From Manis javanica (taxonomy: Eukaryota > Chordata > Mammalia > Pholidota > Manidae), in assembly GCF_040802235.1 (NCBI RefSeq), contig NC_133158.1, forward strand, positions 162,413,401 to 162,477,400: a stretch of 64,000 nucleotides of DNA, given 5' to 3'. This document shows, piece by piece, positions 5,451-60,778 of this stretch (positions within the stretch are counted from its first letter, which is position 1; every line of letters starts with the position of its first letter). Below the pieces are notes generated by a model, which saw nothing but the letters and a program-made list of their open reading frames with translations, was not told the origin of the DNA and ran no database searches. Both the position numbers and the translations under genes were made by a program.

Positions 5451-6739
5451 ATGTCTCATGCAATAACAGATGAGGGCAGGAATGAAAGAGCGGAGCTAAT
5501 TAGCCAAGCAAGTACAAGCCAGCACATTCTGGAGGCTGCAGTGACCCAGACAGAGATGTGCTCTTGTGAGGACCTTGAAAGTCAGCTGGGGACAAGGACT
5601 GTTTATGGTGCAGCTCCATGCAGTGGGCCAAGGAGTGGACCCTGGGCACTGGTCTGAAAAGCAGGCCCCCACTTCACCAAGGCAGACCGCATCCGAAGGT
5701 CTCCTTTCCCGCTGTGAGCCTCTCTGAGGACTAAGAGGCCTTGGGCCTTCTACGGGCACAACCTGAGGCTTTCCTAGGACAATAGTGTTTTATCTCCCTA
5801 GTGGCCTCTCCAAGGACACCGTGCTAGCTACCACTTCTCCTGGCATCGTTCCAAAGAGCAGACTCAGATACTAACTCCTGACCGCCTTCAGATGAGTCAG
5901 CAATGTGGGGATGAGCCGTCCACACCCAGGGCTCTCTATCCGTAGACACCAGCCCTCCTTCAACCACAGTCCTAACACTCCTCAGCCATGTGGTTTCTGT
6001 GAAGGCTACCAGCAGAGAGGAGCTTTGCTGGGGGCAGGAGAGTGTGCTTCAAAGTCCAAAGGCATACAGTCCAAATCTCATCTCTTGCAAGTCTCCTCTC
6101 TGGGAGCCTCAGTCATTGTGGACTATGGCTGCTCACTGGGCTGAGGTGGGAAATAGCTGGATCGCTGAAGGACACATTGCAGACCCTCAGTAAATGGGGT
6201 TGGGGAGAGGAGAGCAAGAGCCTCCTCAGTAAGCAAGGTGGCTCCCTGGGGTGCACACGAACTAGCTCTGGACCCAAGGCTGAGAAAGGAAGGCCCAGGG
6301 CACCCTGCCTTCCCAGCAACCCGAGAATGTTGATAGAGGCCTGGGGCTGACCATCCGCAGTCTGCTAGGCTGCGCTAATTGAGGTCTCCTGGTCACCAGC
6401 ATCCCGCCCTGGGGGAGGATAGCATACTCCCCACCTTCCCCAGCTGTCTGCTCTGGCCTGGCCTGAAGTGGTACCAACCTACTAAGTAGGTGTTGGCCGC
6501 ACAGTTCAAAGCAAGCTCAGCTGCAGGAGGATACGGTGGGAATGGGATGGCCAGGAGCCAAATCCCAGTATGGGGAGGAGGATGGGCAGGTTGGAAGGCT
6601 TCTGGCAGAGATCAGGGTGCCCTGTGTCCCAGAATGGCTTCATGCTAGGTCATGCAGCAAGTTTATGCTTCAGAAGGTTTCCCTGTATTTTTTGTTCTTT
6701 TTTCCCTTCCTCCAACAGCCCACAGGCAGCCAGAAAACA

Positions 6740-8430: not shown

Positions 8431-8579
8431 CTCCCCCGCAATTAAAGCAAACTTCTTGTTGTTTGAAATAACTATGGGGCCTCTGGATTGCTATGGTGCG
8501 CAGCGATGTTTTAGATCCCTTGCTTCATGCAAATATAAGGCATTGTCAAGATGCCATTGAGTTTTCCCTCTCCTTGCAC

Positions 8580-8881: not shown

Positions 8882-9185
8882 TCTATTAAAGACTTAATGT
8901 CTCTTATAAATTGCTTTTTGCACAGATCACAGCCTGGGTGACAGCAAGTTCATTCTCATCCCCCTCTAGTGCTACCATGGGCCCCCCTTACCACCCCCGC
9001 CTCCTCCCCAAAGCTTGCACACTGCATCTGGCTGCGTTAGGGAAAGATGCCTCTTACTTAGGGCAGGGGCGGCTTCATGCCAGGAAGTGACATGGATTTC
9101 AACCCCCTTTACCCATTTGCTCAATGGTTCCTCAGCCTTAGCTCTGCTTCCATTTTGGGCCACATTAATTCTTTGTTGTGGGAAG

Positions 9186-44056: not shown

Positions 44057-44072
44057 TGTATGAACTCTTTTT
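44057..44072. repeat. Target-site duplication, L1 3' side
   Basis: TGTATGAACTCTTTTT occurs here and again at 52939-52954. The T-run at its end merges with the L1 poly(A) tail as read on the plus strand, so its exact right edge is ambiguous. Confidence 0.9.
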
Positions 44073-44085
44073 TTTTTTTTTTTTT

Positions 44086-44625
44086 GAGATTTTTAGTATT
44101 TTATTGAGTTTGAATAAACCACCTAGAGAATTTTCCATAGAAAAACATTACAGTGTGGGAAGTTTTGAATTATTATTTCACTGTATTGTAACACTGAAAT
44201 GTTAAGAAAATCTATTTATACCTTAAATCAAAATTTGTTGTAACTGTTAATAGATTTACAATTGCATTAAATTATTAGACTAAAATGACCCTGGATTCAC
44301 AGATTTGGGTGAAACGTGGCTATACTATGTTTTAGCTGAGTAAACTTGGGAAACTATTTAATCCCCCTGAGTTTTTCCTCTTTAAAAAGGGAATAGTAAT
44401 GTATGTACATACATCATACTGTGATGATCAGAGTAACTCTTGTAAAGCATTTAGCACAGTGCTAATGACACTGATGGCTAGGTATTAACAGTTACTTCTC
44501 CCCAGCCTCCATGGTGGACTGCTCTATTTACTTAACTCTTGCCAGTGTTTGGGAATTTCAGGAGGCCTCTATCTTTGAGAGTTAAAGAATTAAATTAGTG
44601 TAGTCTCTTCTGCTACAATACATGC
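44086..44625 (-). other. 3'-transduced genomic segment of the L1
   Basis: This 540-bp segment lies between the A-rich tract after the retroviral R (44662-44626) and the terminal poly(A), inside the target-site duplications. It is not L1: it contains a MIR on the plus strand at about 44320-44490. In L1 sense it ends with AATAAA (44105-44100) about 14 nt before the poly(A), so a downstream genomic signal terminated the progenitor transcript. Confidence 0.8.
44320..44490 (+). mobile_element. MIR inside the transduced segment
   Basis: TTGGGAAACTATTTAATCCC and GCATTTAGCACAGTGCTAAT are MIR blocks. They show that the surrounding 540 bp came from ordinary genomic DNA. Confidence 0.7.
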
Positions 44626-44662
44626 TTTTTTTAAATTTATTTTTATTTTTTTTTATTTTTTT

Positions 44663-46302
44663 GAGAGGGCATCTCTCATATTTATTGATCAAATGGTTGT
44701 TAACAACAATAAAATTCAGTATAGGGGGGTCAACGCTCAATGTACAATCATTAATCCATCTCAAGCCTAATTCTCGTCAGTCTCCAATCTTCTGAAGCAT
44801 AACGAACAAGTTCTTACATGAAGAACGAATTCTTACATAGTGAATAAATTCTTACAATGTGAACAGTACAAGGGCAGTCATCACAGAAACTTTCGGTTTT
44901 GATCATGCAATATGACCTATAAACCATCAGGTCAAATATGAATATTCGTTTGATTTTTGTACTTGATTTATATGTTGATCCCACATTTCTCCTATTATTA
45001 TTATTATTTTTATTTTTAATAAAATGCTGAAGTGGTAGGTAGATACAAGATAAAGGTAGAAAACATAGTTTAGTGCTGTAAGAAGGCAAATGTAGATGAT
45101 CAGATGATCAGGTGTGTGCCTATGGACTAAGTATTAATCCAGGCTAGTCAAGGGCAGCAAGACATCCACGGATGCAGAAGATTTCTCTCAAAGCAGGGGG
45201 GGTGAGGTTCTGAGCCTCACCTCTGTTGATCCCCAAATTCTCACCTGATGGCCCCCCTGCGACTGTGCCTGTCTTAGGTTGTTCCTCCCTTGAGGAATCT
45301 TACCCGTCTCTGGCTAACCAGTCATCTTCCGGGGCCATACAGGGAAATGTAAAGTTGGTAAGTGAGAGAGAAGCCATATTGTTTGCAAACGTTAGCTTTT
45401 TACTTCTTTGCAGATTTATGCCCTGTGGCTTCTATGCCCAGCACTTGTCTCGAGGTATCTTTACCACCTGGAGGAATTATGATACTCGGTAAATTCAATA
45501 TGAGGCACGAATTCTATTTAAGGTTTGTAATTAGGAAGGAAGAAGAAAAGCTATAGATGTAGCGTATGAAGGAAACTTGGGAGGATTGATTATTTCTTTG
45601 ACATATCTTCTTGTATAGTACCTTAAGTATGTATAGGTTTTAAACTACTAACTAATTTGCACACACATATTAACATAATAGGAATACGGTGACATAAACA
45701 AAGCAAATCTATAATTACCAGCCATCTCCAGTGAAGCCAAGAAAACCATTTAGGCACCCTAGGCATTTGTGAAAATTTATCTATGATATGATGGATATTG
45801 TCCAACTGTACTTGAACCATCAGACAAATTAAAGCAGCCCATTTCTGGGATCTGTTCACATCCCATATGTTCTTTTAACCATAGATAGTCTATAGTCATG
45901 AGATTTTGGGGTGCTACAACTTGCACCCCTCCCAACTCCTGGTTGAGTTCCAACAGTACAGATCCGGTCAAATTCGTTGTCTCACTGTATGCACATGCCA
46001 GCCTAGACATCTCCCTCCTCATTCCTATGGCAAGTCCAGGAGACGGTGGGCTGGATGCAGCCACAACCGCAGCATCGTCCGGATCCCTGTGGAGGCTTTT
46101 TGATGATCATCCCCCGGCACAAGTCCTCCAGAGAGTGCTGATGCCGGAAGCTCCTCCTCATATCGTATCTTAGTTCATTCTCTGGGTATCCAAGCTAGGC
46201 CTTGATCTTCTGCGTAGAAACAAACAGACCCTTTGCCCACACTTTGACATGCCCTCTATACCACTGTGCAGAACTCATTGGAGGTCAGCACACAGTAACT
46301 GC
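44663..46302 (-). mobile_element. Endogenous-retrovirus 3' end carried by the L1
   Basis: Downstream of the internal A13, in the same sense as the L1, lies the 3' end of a retroviral transcript. It has a broken env transmembrane region (about 46064-45623), a stretch with no clear coding, a polypurine tract AGGAGAAA (44993-44986), then a U3 that starts TGTGGGA (44985) and runs 323 bp to the end of R. AATAAA lies at 44686-44681, 18 nt before the CCCTCTC/poly(A) junction at 44663. There is no U5 and no CA terminus, as expected for an RNA-derived copy rather than an integrated provirus. The family is unassigned. Confidence 0.75.
45623..46064 (-). pseudogene. Broken retroviral env transmembrane-subunit remnant
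   Basis: Two overlapping minus-strand frames (46064-45777 and 45859-45623) together resemble the ectodomain-to-membrane part of a retroviral TM subunit. The first contains a leucine/glutamine-rich helix followed by WLKEHMGCEQIPEMGCFNLSD, the position where such proteins carry a Cys-rich loop. The usual adjacent second Cys is replaced by Gly. The second continues with a Trp-rich pre-membrane segment (VPKWFSWLHWRW) and a hydrophobic stretch. A frame change around 45780-45860 and the absence of any surface subunit make it non-functional. It is an old viral fragment; assignment to a genus is not attempted. Confidence 0.6.
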
Positions 46303-46315
46303 TTTTTTTTTTTTT

Positions 46316-46831
46316 AATTAAGAGAAAAGAATATTATCAGAAAAGAGTACCTCCATAGCTGATCATCTGACCCCCTTTAAGTGATCAACATTAAGGATAT
46401 TTAAAGCATGCGTTGATCTTTGATTTACCAATAGTTTTATCCTGTTAAGGAGTAATCCCCCTTTTCTTTCTTTCTTTCTTTTTTTTTTTAAATTTTTAAT
46501 CTACACTTACCTGAAGAATACTATGTTTACTATGCTCTCCCCTATATCAGGTCCCCCCTAACAACCACATTACGGTTACTGTCCATCAGCTTAGCAAAAT
46601 GTGGTAGAGTCACTACTTGTCCTCTCTGTGTTGTGCAGCCCACCCTCCCCTTTCTCCCTCCCCCCCATGCATGCTAATCTTAATACCCTCCTTCTTCTTC
46701 CCCCCCCTTATCCCTCCCTGCCCACCCATCCTCCCCAGTTCCTTTCCCTTTGGTACCTGTTAGTCCATTTTTGGGTTCTGTAATTCTGCTGCTGTTTTGT
46801 TCCTTCAGTTTTTCCTTTGTTCCTATAATCC
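46316..46831 (-). other. Conventional L1 3' UTR
   Basis: About 515 bp follow the ORF2 stop in sense orientation. A purine- and G-rich tract (plus strand C/T-rich at about 46621-46745) is the hallmark of mammalian L1 3' UTRs. A polypurine AAAG stretch follows (plus strand 46465-46492). It ends at AATTA followed by 13 A (46315-46303), where an ordinary copy would have its tail. Confidence 0.75.
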
Positions 46832-49800
46832 TCAGATGAGTGAAATCATTTGGTATTTCTCTTTCTCCGCTTGGCTTATTTCACTGAGCATAATACTCTC
46901 CAGCTCCATCCATGTTGCTGCAAATGGTTGGATTTTTCCACTTCTTATGGCTGAGTAGTATTCCATTGTGTATATGTACCACATCTTCTTTATCCATTCA
47001 TCTACAGATGGACATTTAGGTTGCTTCCAATTCTTGGCTATTGTAAATAGTGCTGCGATAAACATAGGAGTGCATCTGTCTTTCTCAAACTTGATTGCTG
47101 CGTTCTTAGGGTAAATTCCTAGGAGTGGAATTCCTGGGTCAAATGGTAGGTCTGTTTTGAGCATTTTGATGCACCTCCATACTGCTTTCCACAATGGTTG
47201 AACTAATTTACATTCCCACCAGCAGTGTAGGAGGGTTCCCCGTTCTCCACAGCCTCGCCAACATTTGTTGTTGTTTGTCTTTTGGATGGCAGCTATCCTT
47301 ACTGGTGTGAGGTGATACCTCATTGTAGTTTTAATTTGCATTTCTCTGATAATTAGCGATGTGGAGCATCTTTTCATGTGTCTCTTGGCCATCTGTATTT
47401 CTTTTTTGGAGAACTGTCTGTTCAGTTCCTCTGCCCATTTTTTAATTGGGTTATTTGTTTTTTGTTTGTTGAGGCGTGTGAGCTCTTTATATATTCTGGA
47501 CGTCAAGCCTTTATCGGATCTGTCATTTTCAAATATATTCTCCCATACTGTAGGGTTCCTTTTTGTTCTATTGATGGTGTCTTTCGCTGTACAGAAGCTT
47601 TTCAGCTTAATGTAGTCCCACTTGCTCATATTTGCTGTTGTTTTCCTTGCCCGGGGAGATATGTTCAAGAAGAGATCACTCATGTTTAGGTCTAAGAGGT
47701 TTTTGCCTATGTTTTTTTCCAAGAGTTTAATGGTTTCGTGACTTACATTCAGGTCTTTGATCCATTTTGAGTTTACCTTTGTATATGGGGTTAGACAATG
47801 GTCCAGTTTCATTCTCCTACATGTAGCTGTCCAGTTTTGCCAGCACCATCTGTTGAAGAGACTGTCATTTTGCCATTGTATGTCCATGGCTCCTTTATCA
47901 AATATTAATTGACCATATATGTTTGGGTTAATTTCTGGGGTCTCTAATCTGTTCCACTGGTCTGTGGCTCTGTTCTTGTGCCAGTACCAAATTGTCTTGA
48001 TTACTATGGCTTTGTAGTAGAGCTTGAAGTTGGGGAGTGAGATCCCCCCTACTTTATTCTTCTTTTTCAGGATTGCTTTGGCTATTCGGGGTCTTTGGTG
48101 TTTCCATATGAATTTTTGAACTATTTGTTCCAATTCATTGAAGAATGTTGCTGGTAATTTGAGAGGGATTGCATCAAATCTGTATATTGCTTTGGGCAGG
48201 ATGGCCATTTTGACGATATTAATTCTTCCTAGCCATGAGCATGGGATGAGTTTCCATTTATTAGTGTCCCCTTTAATTTCTCTTAAGAGTGACTTGTAGT
48301 TTTCAGAGTATAAGTCTTTCACTTCTTTGGTTAGGTTTATTCCTAGGTATTTTATTCTTTTTGATGCAATGGTGAATGGAATTGTTTTCCTGATTTCTCT
48401 TTCTATTGATTCGTTGTTAGTGTATAGGAAAGCTACAGATTTCTGTGTGTTAATTTTGTATCCTGCAACTTTGCTGTATTCCGATATCAGTTCTAGTAGT
48501 TTTGGAGTGGAGTCTTTAGGGTTTTTTATGTACAGTATCATATCATCTGCAAATAGTGACAGTTTAACTTCTTCTTTACCAATCTGGATTCCTTGTATTT
48601 CTTTGTTTTGTCTGATTGCCGTGGCTAGGACCTCCAGTACTATGTTAAATAACAGTGGGGAGAGTGGGCATCCCTGTCTGGTTCCCGATCTCAGTGGAAA
48701 TGCTTTCAGCTTCTCGCTGTTCAGTATAATGCTGGCTGTGGGTTTATCATATATGGCCTTTATTATGTTGAGGTACTTGCCCTCTATTCCCATTTTGCTG
48801 AGAGTTTTTATCATGAATGGATGTTGAATTTTGTCAAATGCTTTTTCAGCATCTATGGAGATGATCATGTGGTTTTTGTCTTTCTTTTTGTTGATGTGGT
48901 GGATGATGTTGATGGATTTTCGAATGTTGTACCATCCTTGCATCCCTGGGATGAACCCCACTTGGTCATGGTGTATGATCCTTTTGATATACTGTTGAAT
49001 TCTGTTTGCTAATATTTTATTGAGTATTTTTGCATCTACATTCATCAGGGATATTGGTCTGTAATTTTCTTTTTTGGTGGGGTCTTTTCCTGGTTTTGGT
49101 ATTAGGGTGATGTTGGCTTCATAGAATGAGTTTGGGAGTATTCCCTCTTCTTCTATTTTGTGGAACACTTTAAGGAGAATGGGTATTATGTCTTCTCTGT
49201 GTGTCTGATAAAATTCCGAGGTAAATCCGTCCGGCCCCGGGGTTTTGTTCTTGGGTAGTTTTTTGATTACTGTTTCAATTTCTTTGCTTGTAATTGGTTT
49301 GTTTAACTTTTGTGTTTCTTCCTTGGTCAGTCTTGGGAGGTTGTATTTTTCTAGGAAGTTGTCCATTTCTTCTAGGTTTTCCAGCGTGTTGGCATATAGG
49401 TTTTCATAGTAGTCTTTAATAGTTCTTTGTATTTCTGTGGAGTCTGTCGTGATTTTTCCATTCTCATTTCTGATTATGTTGATTTGTGTTGACTCTCTTT
49501 TTCTCTTAATAAGTTGGGCTAGAGGCTTATCTATTTTGTTTATTTTCTCAAAGAACCAGCTCTTGGTTTCGTTGATTTTTGCTATTGTTTTATTCTTCTC
49601 AATTTTGTTTATTTCTTCTCTGATCTTTATTATGTCCCTCCTTCTGCTGACTTTAGGTCTCATTTGTTCTTCTTTTTCCAGTTTTAATAATTGTGATGTT
49701 AGACTATTCATTTGGGATTGTTCTTCCTTCTTCAAGTGTGCCTGGATTGCTATATACTTTCCTCTTAAGACTGCTTTCGCTGCATCCCACAGAAGTTGGG

Positions 49801-50674
49801 GCTTAGTGTTGTTGTTGTCATTTGTTTCTATATATTCCTTGATCTCTATTTTGATTTGTTCATTGATCCATTGATTATTTAGTAGCATGTTGTTAAGCCT
49901 CCATGTGTTTGTGAGCCTTTTTGTTTTCTTTGTAGAATTTATTTCTACTTTCATACCTTTGTGGTCTGAAAAATTGGTTGGTAGAATTTCAATATTTTGG
50001 AATTTACTGAGGCTCTTTTTGTGAGCTAGTATGTGGTCTATTCTGGAGAATGTTCCATGTGCACTTGAGAAGAATGTATATCCTGTTGCTTTTGGATGTA
50101 GAGTTCTATAGATGTCTATTAGGTCCATCTGTTCTAGTGTGTTGTTCAGTGCCTGTGTGTCTTTACTTATTTTCTGCCCGGTGGTTCTATCCTTTGGGGT
50201 GAGTGGTGTGTTGAAGTCTCCTACAATGAATGCATTGCAGTCTATTTCCCTCTTTAGTTCTGTTAGTATTTGCTTCACATATGCTGCTGCTCCTGTGTTG
50301 GGTGCATATATATTTAGAATGGTTATATCCTCTTGTTGGAGTGAGCCCTTTATCATTATGTAGTGGCCTTCTTTATCTCTTGTTACTTTCTTTGTTTTGA
50401 AGTCTATTTTGTCTGATATTAGTACTGCAACCCCTGCTTTCTTCTCACTGTTGTTTGCCTGAAATATGTTTTTCCATCCCTTGACTTTTAGTCTATGCTT
50501 ATCTTTGGGTTTAAGGTGAGTTTCTTGTAAGCAGCATATAGATGGGTCTTGCTTTTTTATCCATTCTATTACTCTATGTCTTTTGATTGGTGCATTAAGT
50601 CCATTTACATTTAGGGTGACTATTGAGAGATATGTACTTATTGCCATTTCAGGCTTTAGATTCGTGGTTACCAA
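46832..50674 (-). CDS. L1 ORF2 protein (endonuclease and reverse transcriptase), intact
   Basis: ORF2p nicks target DNA and reverse-transcribes L1 RNA at the nick. The 1280-residue frame starts with the endonuclease ([28 protein letters not shown], and the catalytic SDH segment [10 protein letters not shown]). It continues with the reverse transcriptase (NYRPISLMN, and the FADDMILYI box with its catalytic Asp pair) and ends with the Cys-rich domain [18 protein letters not shown], arranged C-x3-C-x7-H-x4-C. Total length is close to other mammalian ORF2 proteins (about 1275). No internal stop is present, so the element could be competent for movement. Confidence 0.95.
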
Positions 50675-50842
50675 AGGTTCAAGGTTAGCTTCTTTAGTAT
50701 CTTACTGCCTAACTTAGCTCGCTTATTGAGCTGTTATATACACTGTCTGGAGATTCTTTTCTTCTCTCCCTTCTTATTCCTCCTCCTCCATTCTTCATAT
50801 GTTGTGTGTTTTGTTCTGTGCTCTTTTTAGGGGTGCTCCCAT

Positions 50843-51796
50843 CTAGAGCAGTCCCTGTAGGATGCCCTGTAGAGGTGGTTTGTGGGAAGCGAATTCCCTC
50901 AGCTTTTGCTTGTCTGGGAATTGTTTGATCCCACCATCATATTTAAATGATAGTCGTGCTGGATATAGTATCCTTGGTTCAAGGCCCTTCTGTTTCATTG
51001 CATTAAGTATATCATGCCATTCTCTTCTGGCCTGTAGGGTTTCTGTTGAGAAGTCTGATGTTAGCCTGATTGGTTTTCCTTTATAGGTGACCTTTTTCTC
51101 TCTAGCTGCCTTTAAAACTCTTTCCTTGTCCTTGATCCTTGCCATTTTAATTACTATGTGTCTTGGTGTTGTCCTCCTTGGATCCTTTCTGTTGGGGGTT
51201 CTGTGTAATTCCATGGTCTGTTCGATTATTTCCTCCCCCAGTTTGGGGAAGTTTTCAGCAATTATTTCTTCAAAGACACTTTCTATCCCTTTTCCTCTTT
51301 CTTCCTCTTCTGGTATCCCTATAATACGAATGTTTTTCCTTTTGTATTGGTCACATATTTCTCTTAGTGTTGTTTCATTCCTGGAGATCCTTTTATCTCT
51401 CTCTATGTCAGCTTCTATACGTTCCTGTTCTCTGGCTTCTATTCCTTCAATGGCCTCTTGCATCTTATCCATTCTGCTTATAAATCCTTCCAGGGATTGT
51501 TTCACTTCTGTGATCTCTTTCCTGACATCTGTGATCTCCTTCCGGACTTCATCCCACTGCTCTTGCATTTTTCTCTGCATCTCATCCCACTGCTCTTGCA
51601 TTTTTCTCTGCATCTCATCCCACTGCTCTTGCATTTTTCTCTGCATCTCATCCCATTGCTCTTGCATTTTTCTCTGCATCTCTGTCAGCATGTTCATGAT
51701 TTTTATTTTGAATTCTTTTTCAGGAGGACTAGTTAGGTCCGTCTCCTCAGGTGTTGTCTCTGTGATCTTTGTCTGCCTGTAGTTTTGCCTTTTCAT
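50843..51796 (-). CDS. L1 ORF1 protein (RNA-binding chaperone), intact
   Basis: ORF1p trimerises through an N-terminal coiled coil, binds L1 RNA in cis and acts as a nucleic-acid chaperone. The 317-residue frame has a coiled coil (about residues 30-130), an RRM region (IRIIGIPEEEERGKGIESVF) and the C-terminal domain (TPRHIVIKMARIKDKERVLK, then LQARREWHDIL). The coiled coil contains four exact copies of the 11-residue unit EMQRKMQEQWD. Length and domain order match other mammalian L1 ORF1 proteins. It lies 168 bp upstream of ORF2 on the same transcript. No stop or frameshift is seen. Confidence 0.93.
   Translation of the reverse strand: MKRQNYRQTKITETTPEETDLTSPPEKEFKIKIMNMLTEMQRKMQEQWDEMQRKMQEQWDEMQRKMQEQWDEMQRKMQEQWDEVRKEITDVRKEITEVKQSLEGFISRMDKMQEAIEGIEAREQERIEADIERDKRISRNETTLREICDQYKRKNIRIIGIPEEEERGKGIESVFEEIIAENFPKLGEEIIEQTMELHRTPNRKDPRRTTPRHIVIKMARIKDKERVLKAAREKKVTYKGKPIRLTSDFSTETLQARREWHDILNAMKQKGLEPRILYPARLSFKYDGGIKQFPDKQKLREFASHKPPLQGILQGLL
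51551..51682 (-). repeat. Four 33-bp tandem repeats inside L1 ORF1
   Basis: Four consecutive in-frame 33-bp units, nearly identical at the DNA level, encode repeated EMQRKMQEQWD in the ORF1p coiled coil. Only one base (C to T in the last unit on the plus strand) differs clearly. Confidence 0.9.
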
Positions 51797-52938
51797 GGTG
51801 ATAGAGATAGTTTGCAGAGCTGGTACAAGTGACCGCTGGAGGAGCTTCCCTTCTTGTTGGTTTGTAGCCTTTTCCTGGGAGAATAGCGACCTCTAGTGGC
51901 TTGTGCTGGGCAGCTGTGCGCAGACAGGGCTTCTGCTTCCTGCCCAGTTGCTATGGGGTTTATCTCCGCTGTTGCTGTGGGCTTGGCCTGGCTGGGGCTG
52001 CTTGTCCAAAATGGTGGAGCCCCGTTGGAGGGGGAGCGGCCAGGAGGCTATTTATCTCCGTAAGGGGCCTCTGTGCTCCCTGCTGCCCAGGGGGTTAGAG
52101 TGCCCAGAGATCCCCAGATTCCCTGCCTCTGGTCTAAGTGACCTGTCCTGCCCCTTTAAGATTTCCAAAAAGCACTCTCCAAACCAAAACAACAACAGCA
52201 ACAATGAGAGAGGGAACAGAAAGAAAGTGAAAAAAAAAAAGGAAAAAAAAGGAAACAAGCGATTTTTTTTTTTTTTTTTTTTTGTCCTCAGGTGCCGGTC
52301 CCAGGCACCCGCTCACTGGTCCTGCTGCCCTGTCTCCCTAGCACCAGGGTCCCTGTCCTTTCAAGGCTTCCAAAAAGCACCCACCCACCGGTCCCGCAGG
52401 GAAGGAACGCTCGATATTCTTTGTCCTCAGGCACTGGTCCCAGGCACCCGCTCACCAGTCCCGCCGCCCTGCCTCCCTAGCACAGGGGTCCCTGTCCCTT
52501 CAAGGCTTCCAAAAAGCACTCGCCAAAAAGAGAGAAAAAAAGGGGAAAAACGCGCGATTTCTTCCGTCCTCAGGTGCTGGTCTCAGGCACCCACCCACCG
52601 GTCCCACAGGGAAAAATGCGGGATATTCTTTGTCCTCAGGTGCCGGTCCCAGGCACCCGCTCACCAGTCCCGCCGCCCTGCCTCCCTAGCACCGGGGTCC
52701 CTGTCCCTTTTAGGCTTCCAAAAAGCACTCGCAGAAAAGAGAAAAAAAAAAGGGGAAAAACGCGCGATTTCCTCTGTCCTCAAGTGCCGGTCTCAGGCAC
52801 CCGCCCACCGGTCCCGCAGGGAAAAACGGGGGATATTCTTTGTCCTCAGGCGCCGGTCCCAGCCACCCGCTCACCAGTCCCGCCACCCTGCCTCCCTAGC
52901 ACTGGGGTCCCCGTCCCTTCAAGGCTTCCAAAAAGCGC
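51797..52938 (-). promoter_or_regulatory. L1 5' UTR/promoter
   Basis: This 1.14-kb region upstream of ORF1 should contain the internal RNA polymerase II promoter of the L1. It has a single-copy part next to ORF1 (51797-52140) and a tandemly repeated part (52140-52938), both GC-rich and rich in CpG. A run of 23 T on the plus strand near 52262 interrupts one monomer. The element begins with GCGCTTTTTGG on its sense strand, directly at the target-site duplication, so the 5' end looks complete. Confidence 0.8.
52140..52938 (-). repeat. Tandem promoter monomers in the L1 5' UTR
   Basis: The block ending in AAGGCTTCCAAAAAGC recurs at 52158 (variant), 52363, 52502, 52711 and 52921. Spacings are about 205, 139, 209 and 210 bp. 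Each unit also carries the TCCCAGGCACCCGCTCACC and CACCGGTCCCGCAGGGAA sub-blocks; the 139-bp unit lacks one of them. This is a monomeric promoter of about 210-bp units, similar in principle to mouse L1 monomers. Confidence 0.8.
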
Positions 52939-52954
52939 TGTATGAACTCTTTTT
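52939..52954. repeat. Target-site duplication, L1 5' side
   Basis: This is the second copy of TGTATGAACTCTTTTT, followed by AACAAG. Joining the sequence before the first copy to the sequence after this one rebuilds continuous pre-insertion DNA that resembles an old L1. Confidence 0.9.
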
Positions 52955-60331: not shown

Positions 60332-60778
60332 CACTAAACTATGTTTTCTACCTTTATCTTGCATCTACCTACCACTTCAGCATTTTATTAAAATCATAAT
60401 AATAATAATAATAAGGGAGAAATGTGGGATTCACATATAAATCAAGTATAAAAATCAAACGAATATTCATATTTGTCCTGATTGTTTATAGTTCATAATG
60501 CGTGATCAAAACCGAAAGTTTCTGTGACGACTGCCCTTGTCCTGTTCACCATGTAAGAACTTATTCACTATGTAAGAATTTGTACACCATGTAAGAACTT
60601 GTTCGTTGTGCTTCAGAAGATCTGAGACTGATGAGAATTAGACTTGGGGTGGATTAATGATTGTGCATTGAGTCCCCTGTACAGAATTTTATTGTTGTTA
60701 ACTGTTAACAACCATTTGATCAATAAATATGAGAGATGCCCTCTCAAAACAAACAAACAAACAAACAAACAAAAAAAC
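60332..60778 (+). mobile_element. 5'-truncated, L1-mobilised copy of the retroviral 3' end
   Basis: The sequence matches the sense strand of about 45076-44663. It enters just upstream of the polypurine tract (AAGGGAGAAA, 60413-60422), then has a U3-R of 323 bp (60423-60745), AATAAA at 60722-60727, and a tail of AAAC repeats to 60778. The ends are bounded by a 13-bp duplication. The A-rich tail, truncation and missing U5 show movement of an RNA by L1 machinery, not retroviral integration. Confidence 0.85.

Follow-up and report, generated by a model that had tools for sequence, protein, structure and literature searches.

The genome of the pangolin Manis javanica harbors a propagating family of chimeric L1 elements, in which a coding L1 is followed by the 3′ end of a retrovirus, made up of an env remnant and the U3 and R regions of an LTR. 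Four observations together lead to this conclusion: one L1/viral joint recurs at many places in the assembly, the flanks of the copies differ, target duplications are found around them, and L1 body and viral tail have diverged together. The family was probably founded by read-through of an L1 transcript, which captured the retroviral env/U3-R end, and then spread by retrotransposition.

The copy from which the analysis started lies on the minus strand of the window, that is, the whole 64,000-nucleotide stretch analyzed here. It is a full-length L1 in which ORF1 and ORF2 are both open in the list of open reading frames, and all of its L1, viral and transduced sequence is enclosed by one 16-bp target-site duplication (TGTATGAACTCTTTTT) at 52939–52954, on the L1 5′ side, and at 44057–44072, on the 3′ side, where it overlaps the poly(A). 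ORF1 (50843–51892; 349 amino acids, stop to stop) matches the Pfam models Transposase_22 (5.5e-25) and Tnp_22_dsRBD (4.6e-20), and ORF2 (46832–50701; 1,289 amino acids) matches RVT_1 (6e-47) and Exo_endo_phos (4.6e-24). An intact L1, outer duplications around everything and a retroviral 3′ end in the L1 sense had all been read from the letters in an earlier note on this DNA, and all three readings stand. The ORF1 protein finds its best matches in annotated Manis javanica proteins (88% identity over 91% of the query), with Manis pentadactyla near the top too. The RNA-binding and dsRBD domains of ORF1, the endonuclease and reverse transcriptase of ORF2 and, among the chimeric copies, the target-site duplications, A tails and 5′ truncation are those of LINE-1; the 3′ end, by contrast, is not homologous to that of relatives and carries about 1.8 kb of extra sequence past ~46499, which counts against an ordinary L1 3′ end but not against the element being an L1.

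Two parts of the L1 vary in length by repeat units. The 5′ region of the window copy consists of 2.7 copies of a tandem ~210-bp monomer (52377–52936); the number of units kept varies between copies, several of which carry further units, and the 5′ region of mouse L1 is likewise made of tandem monomers. Within ORF1, a 33-bp (11-amino-acid) repeat occupies 51549–51682 in 4.1 copies that are 99% alike, and the open ORF1 lengths seen among copies (317, 318, 328, 339 and 349 amino acids) differ in steps that are mostly near 11 amino acids.

The viral tail (46302–44663) lies on the same minus strand and comprises a degenerate env remnant that includes the transmembrane subunit, TM (44986–46302), and U3-R (44663–44985), terminating in AATAAA (44686–44681) followed by GAGAGATGCCCTCTC. 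Its 3′ limit is the end shared by 24 of the 25 copies examined; the LTR boundaries were set by eye, a purine-rich tract followed by TGTGGGATC from 44985 being read as the start of U3. Within the env remnant, a 109-amino-acid frame (46106–45777) is similar in sequence to the TM subunit from avian sarcoma/leukosis virus (ASLV; PDB 4jpr, E 2.7e-6; 5h9c, E 3.1e-6), and it is the similarity of this one env piece that points to a retroviral origin of the tail. A Pfam search with three env pieces, at E up to 1, gave no match, and IMG/VR, from which records of the host genome are possibly excluded, held no confirmed relative of the env piece and no exact match to the R end. A conjectured integrase C terminus just inside 46302 gained no support from sequence searches. 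Two LTRs around gag, pol and env, as in an endogenous provirus, are not present: the env remnant and U3-R are followed directly by an A tract. Stops interrupt the env remnant in every frame in all 20 copies counted, 15 of which retain the same 109-amino-acid open piece and 19 the same 83-amino-acid piece. Such shared breaks fit a provirus that was dead before or soon after its capture; they could instead date from the L1 lineage early after capture.

The A13 tract at 46303–46315 had at first been taken for the end of the ordinary L1 3′ UTR, a placement that the end points of two tail-less relatives replace. These L1s, L033 and L034, adjoin fetched copies, and their match to the chimera ends at sense positions 6472 and 6484 (position 1 being window 52954), beyond which each passes into its own A-rich end and then into other DNA. 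Identity to the chimera is 79% for L033 over 108 bp, with 85% for the neighboring stretch of ORF2 in L031, and 86.8% for L034 over 4.1 kb. The ordinary L1 3′ end is thus near 46499, ~190 bp upstream of A13, with the ordinary 3′ UTR at 46499–46831. An A-rich/(GAAA)n tract (46462–46498), probably the poly(A) relic of the founder L1, and a 146-bp module (46316–46461) lie in between, and this order of ordinary end, A-rich tract and module is found in all 25 chimeras examined. In the 21 copies that were aligned, an A tract of variable length then stands exactly at the joint and is followed by the viral part; the remaining four show the same order by continuous or near-continuous matches. The longest frame of the 146-bp module has no match in Pfam, and no AATAAA was seen in the module before A13. 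Its position between two A tracts may reflect two founding steps. In L032, expansion of the A-rich L1-tail relic has produced a lengthy microsatellite, (GAAA)n/(GA)n, at 1940–2140 of the sense-oriented locus.

A 221-bp probe across the joint was searched against the assembly (2.56 Gb, 63 contigs). From 258 candidates, 40 places were scored and all 40 match, with at least 219 of the 221 bases covered at 94–100% identity. Twenty-five of these places were examined (the window, 20 fetched at 9.9 kb and four at 5 kb), and the same L1/viral joint is present in every one; in the 20 long pieces, the match starts in the 5′ region or in ORF1, spans ORF2 and extends into the tail, interrupted here and there by small gaps in some of them. 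The flanks differ between copies, the exception being L017 and L018, which have theirs in common and represent one insertion. The earlier note had offered an L1 lineage as its explanation should the junction recur genome-wide in many copies, and the search bears this out. ORF1 (at least 300 amino acids) and ORF2 (1,289 amino acids) are both open in four of 21 copies, namely the window copy, L013, L019 and L024. In 24 of the 25 copies, AATAAA is kept and the viral R site, which sometimes carries point changes, is succeeded by an A tract; of these 24, the window copy continues into a second transduction and the other 23 have ends that are proven by duplications only in part. The chimera L009 ends earlier, in a run of A's just before U3 (near 8510 of the sense-oriented locus) that is preceded by an A-rich stretch containing AATAAA, as would result from internal priming or from the use of another poly(A) site.

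Target duplications were sought with an exact rule (at least 15 bp, not A-rich), under which duplications of 15–16 bp are present in the window copy, tested apart, and in five of 14 other copies, and none of 182 mismatched pairs passes, the longest match among them being 14 bp. In nine copies the exact rule finds no duplication, perhaps because their 5′ ends or flanks do not lie wholly within the fetched pieces; near-match duplications were found for L019, L022 and L027. The test covered neither L009, L021 and L028, for which the script gave no acceptable R end, nor L018 (the same insertion as L017), L020 and L026 (in or beside other L1s) and L029–L032 (later additions). L029 starts inside the L1 3′ UTR and runs on into the viral part, with a 17-bp duplication read by eye.

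Four further tail copies, met by chance and all near other family copies, bear on a different account, in which the viral tail is for the most part a repeat in its own right, SINE-R-like or proviral, with the L1 chimera as a minor offshoot of it. Two of them do begin inside the tail: an older, 5′-truncated copy on the plus strand of the window (60332–60745; 88% identical, with a direct repeat around it read by eye), which stops at the R site shared by the family and carries an A-rich tail of its own, and L021, which begins at 8970 and is continued in L040. The other two reach back into L1 ORF2, from sense position 4881 in L035 with L038 and at least from 4772 in L028 with L039. All four, few as they are, end at R with A's, and none shows U5. 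The differing start points and the extension into ORF2 favor 5′-truncated L1 insertions over a separate repeat with a fixed start, and we consider an independent repeat very unlikely.

Body and tail of the chimera have also diverged together (17 copies, 2,000 permutations; L009, L015, L018 and L026 left out). For pairwise distances in ORF2, the correlation is r = 0.72 with the env remnant (6 of 2,000 permutations as high), r = 0.74 with U3-R (1 of 2,000) and r = 0.48 with the L1 3′ UTR (39 of 2,000); those in the 3′ UTR correlate with the env remnant (r = 0.70, 0 of 2,000) and U3-R (r = 0.57, 9 of 2,000), and the env remnant with U3-R (r = 0.72, 3 of 2,000). Mean pairwise differences are 2.1% for ORF2 (19 copies), 3.2% for the L1 3′ UTR part (21 copies), 2.3% for the env remnant (20 copies) and 3.7% for U3-R (20 copies). 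Two points weaken the argument from co-divergence: insertion age could account for part of it, and ORF2 correlates less with the L1's own 3′ UTR than with the viral parts.

At a single locus, the same arrangement could be mimicked by a viral segment that inserted later into a resident L1, nested within it and never mobilized jointly, and a 13-bp A/T-rich match (AAATTTAAAAAAA) that flanks the module and the viral part together in the window copy might be taken for the duplication of such an event. It is the longest of the matches found there and pairs the A-rich tract before the module with that after R; around the viral part itself the match is 9 bp, and only A-rich, low-complexity matches were seen in this copy. 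When the sequence before the viral part was shuffled, 4 of 500 shuffles reached 12 bp or more, and because R is followed in many other copies by a simple run of A's, the 13-bp match is read as low complexity. The earlier note had named a viral segment with its own target duplication inside the L1 as the finding that would overturn joint movement, and these A-rich matches, set beside a joint found in 25 of 25 copies, do not amount to one. Body and tail co-diverge, truncated copies (L029; L035 with L038) start in the L1 and run through into the viral part, and the joint recurs at independent sites, by which nested later insertion is effectively refuted. Joint movement of L1 and viral sequence, as originally proposed, agrees with this recurrence, with the truncated copies and with the duplication that encloses both parts.

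The window copy does not end at the viral R site, where it had been thought to terminate. It runs on through an A-rich tract (44631–44662), left over from the poly(A) of the parent copy, into a 544-bp segment with its own AATAAA at 44105–44100 (44087–44630), and then into a second poly(A), the tail of the present insertion (44069–44086, edges ambiguous by 1–2 bases). The 544-bp piece has one other copy in the assembly, at G000:C1:208467727-208468270, which is 100% identical (both candidates, the window included, were confirmed), and it is present in none of the 20 long pieces of other copies. At this source locus it follows TCAATTTTTAAAAAGCATG; no L1 sequence was found in the 3,544 bases examined there, and the locus is an empty TTTTT/AAAAAGCATG site. 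With a single-copy source, a position after an A tract, before the final poly(A) and inside the duplication, and a signal of its own, the 544-bp segment is a 3′ transduction of the ordinary kind. It would stem from a parent chimeric L1 at the TTTTT/AAAAAGCATG site, whose transcript went beyond the viral signal and stopped downstream of the AATAAA at 44105–44100. As the source locus contains no L1, this parent is missing from the assembly, and it is therefore probably insertion-polymorphic or lost. The absence of any change over 544 bp points to a recent jump, so that the chimeric form apparently moved very recently. The window lineage thus does read through and transduce.

A similar event would explain how the family arose. 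The founder L1 would have inserted in sense orientation into a provirus that had already decayed, or a short way upstream of one, and its transcript would have passed its own 3′ end (probable relic at 46498–46462), the 146 bp and the env remnant before being cleaved after the AATAAA of the R region. The chimeric RNA would then have spread by ordinary target-primed L1 retrotransposition, with the viral AATAAA as the usual 3′ end of the family since the capture, a use of the viral poly(A) signal that we infer from the end points of the copies. Read-through as the founding step is likewise indirect, and is preferred because it needs no new mechanism and agrees with the later behavior of the same lineage.

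The variable-length A tract that stands exactly at the viral joint in the 21 aligned copies would suit another origin, in which the L1 reverse transcriptase started by copying a viral RNA whose poly(A) tail had been added at R and, at A13, switched to the poly(A) of an L1 RNA with the 146-bp module already attached, the resulting chimera then propagating. An L1 with an earlier 146-bp transduction would indeed end in A's at the joint, but the module shows no AATAAA before A13, and the stops found in every env frame of all 20 copies counted are easier to reconcile with genomic DNA that has decayed than with a functional viral RNA. What the lineage did later was, moreover, read-through. We regard a template switch as unlikely on these grounds, and return to read-through into a provirus as the favored origin.

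The end of each new copy would be set by its surroundings. In ordinary L1s nothing beyond the cleavage site is copied, and the viral U5, which lies downstream of that site, would have stayed behind; termination would therefore hang on the flank of each new insertion and could fail, the parent of the window copy being such a failure. It is plausible, judging from sequence, that a retroviral terminator was adopted to replace a weak L1 signal, as the earlier note had suggested. In favor of this, AATAAA is kept in the 24 R-ending chimeras, and neither of the two tail-less relatives has one ahead of its A tract (the A-rich tail of L034 itself contains AATAAA); on the other side, the window lineage bypassed R and L009 ended before it. 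More far-reaching is the possibility, which we put forward tentatively and do not favor, that in an autonomous mammalian L1 lineage a retroviral U3-R came to work as both terminator and 3′ UTR, and that the lineage thereby displaced ordinary-ended L1s as the main active one in pangolins and became a counterpart of SINE-R that is autonomous and arose convergently.

The nearest analogue is indeed the SINE-R of SVA, a hominoid composite retrotransposon: it ends at R and, like the pangolin tail, forms a module of env 3′ end and LTR with an A tail. In SVA, this module consists of the 3′ end of env and the 3′ LTR of HERV-K10, followed by the A tail (PMC12593883, in part), and the element is mobilized by L1 proteins (PMC7353768, in part). 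By contrast, SVA is non-autonomous and contains hexamer, Alu-like and VNTR parts, whereas the pangolin module is preceded by a coding L1; furthermore, SINE-R derives from HERV-K10 and the pangolin TM is ASLV-like, the likeness to HERV-K10 being one of description only. Both L1 and SVA are known to give rise to 3′ transductions when their own signal is bypassed for a downstream one (PMC12593883, in part). The 544-bp piece is an ordinary case of this with a located source, whereas the retroviral segment has become fixed in an L1 family of many copies. A chimeric L1 insertion has also been described at mouse Axin1 (PMC6500023, in part), and it shares with the present case the involvement of an L1; that, however, is one insertion at one locus, in contrast to a multi-copy lineage with one joint. 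Alpha-like endogenous retroviruses (ERVs) occur in M. pentadactyla, for example ERV-Alpha-Mpen, and one gamma ERV of that species has a LINE-1 between env and the 3′ LTR (PMC12584738, in part). Alpha-like pangolin ERVs, likened by description, are a candidate source of the ASLV-like TM; ERV-Alpha-Mpen and its like differ from the chimera in being proviruses with paired LTRs. No L1 family with an ERV 3′ end is described in the accessible portion of PMC12584738, nor is such a chimeric element in those of PMC9604959 and PMC1764860.

No recognizable account of an L1/env-U3-R chimera was found in the literature searched, a search that took in neither repeat databases nor, for the most part, subscription journals, and a repeat-library consensus may already contain the chimera unremarked. 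L1s with 3′ transductions are known; a multi-copy autonomous L1 family that ends in retroviral U3-R is, as far as could be searched, undescribed. Transductions at the 3′ end are usually seen as passengers, and here one has become fixed in a family that has multiplied and apparently jumped very recently. The missing parent of the window copy suggests insertion polymorphism. The presence in one genome of related L1s that either have or lack a canonical retroviral AATAAA offers a natural experiment on how the quality of a terminator bears on the success of an L1, and the occurrence of env-U3-R modules in both pangolin L1 and SVA raises the question of whether such modules are a favored cargo of the L1 machinery.
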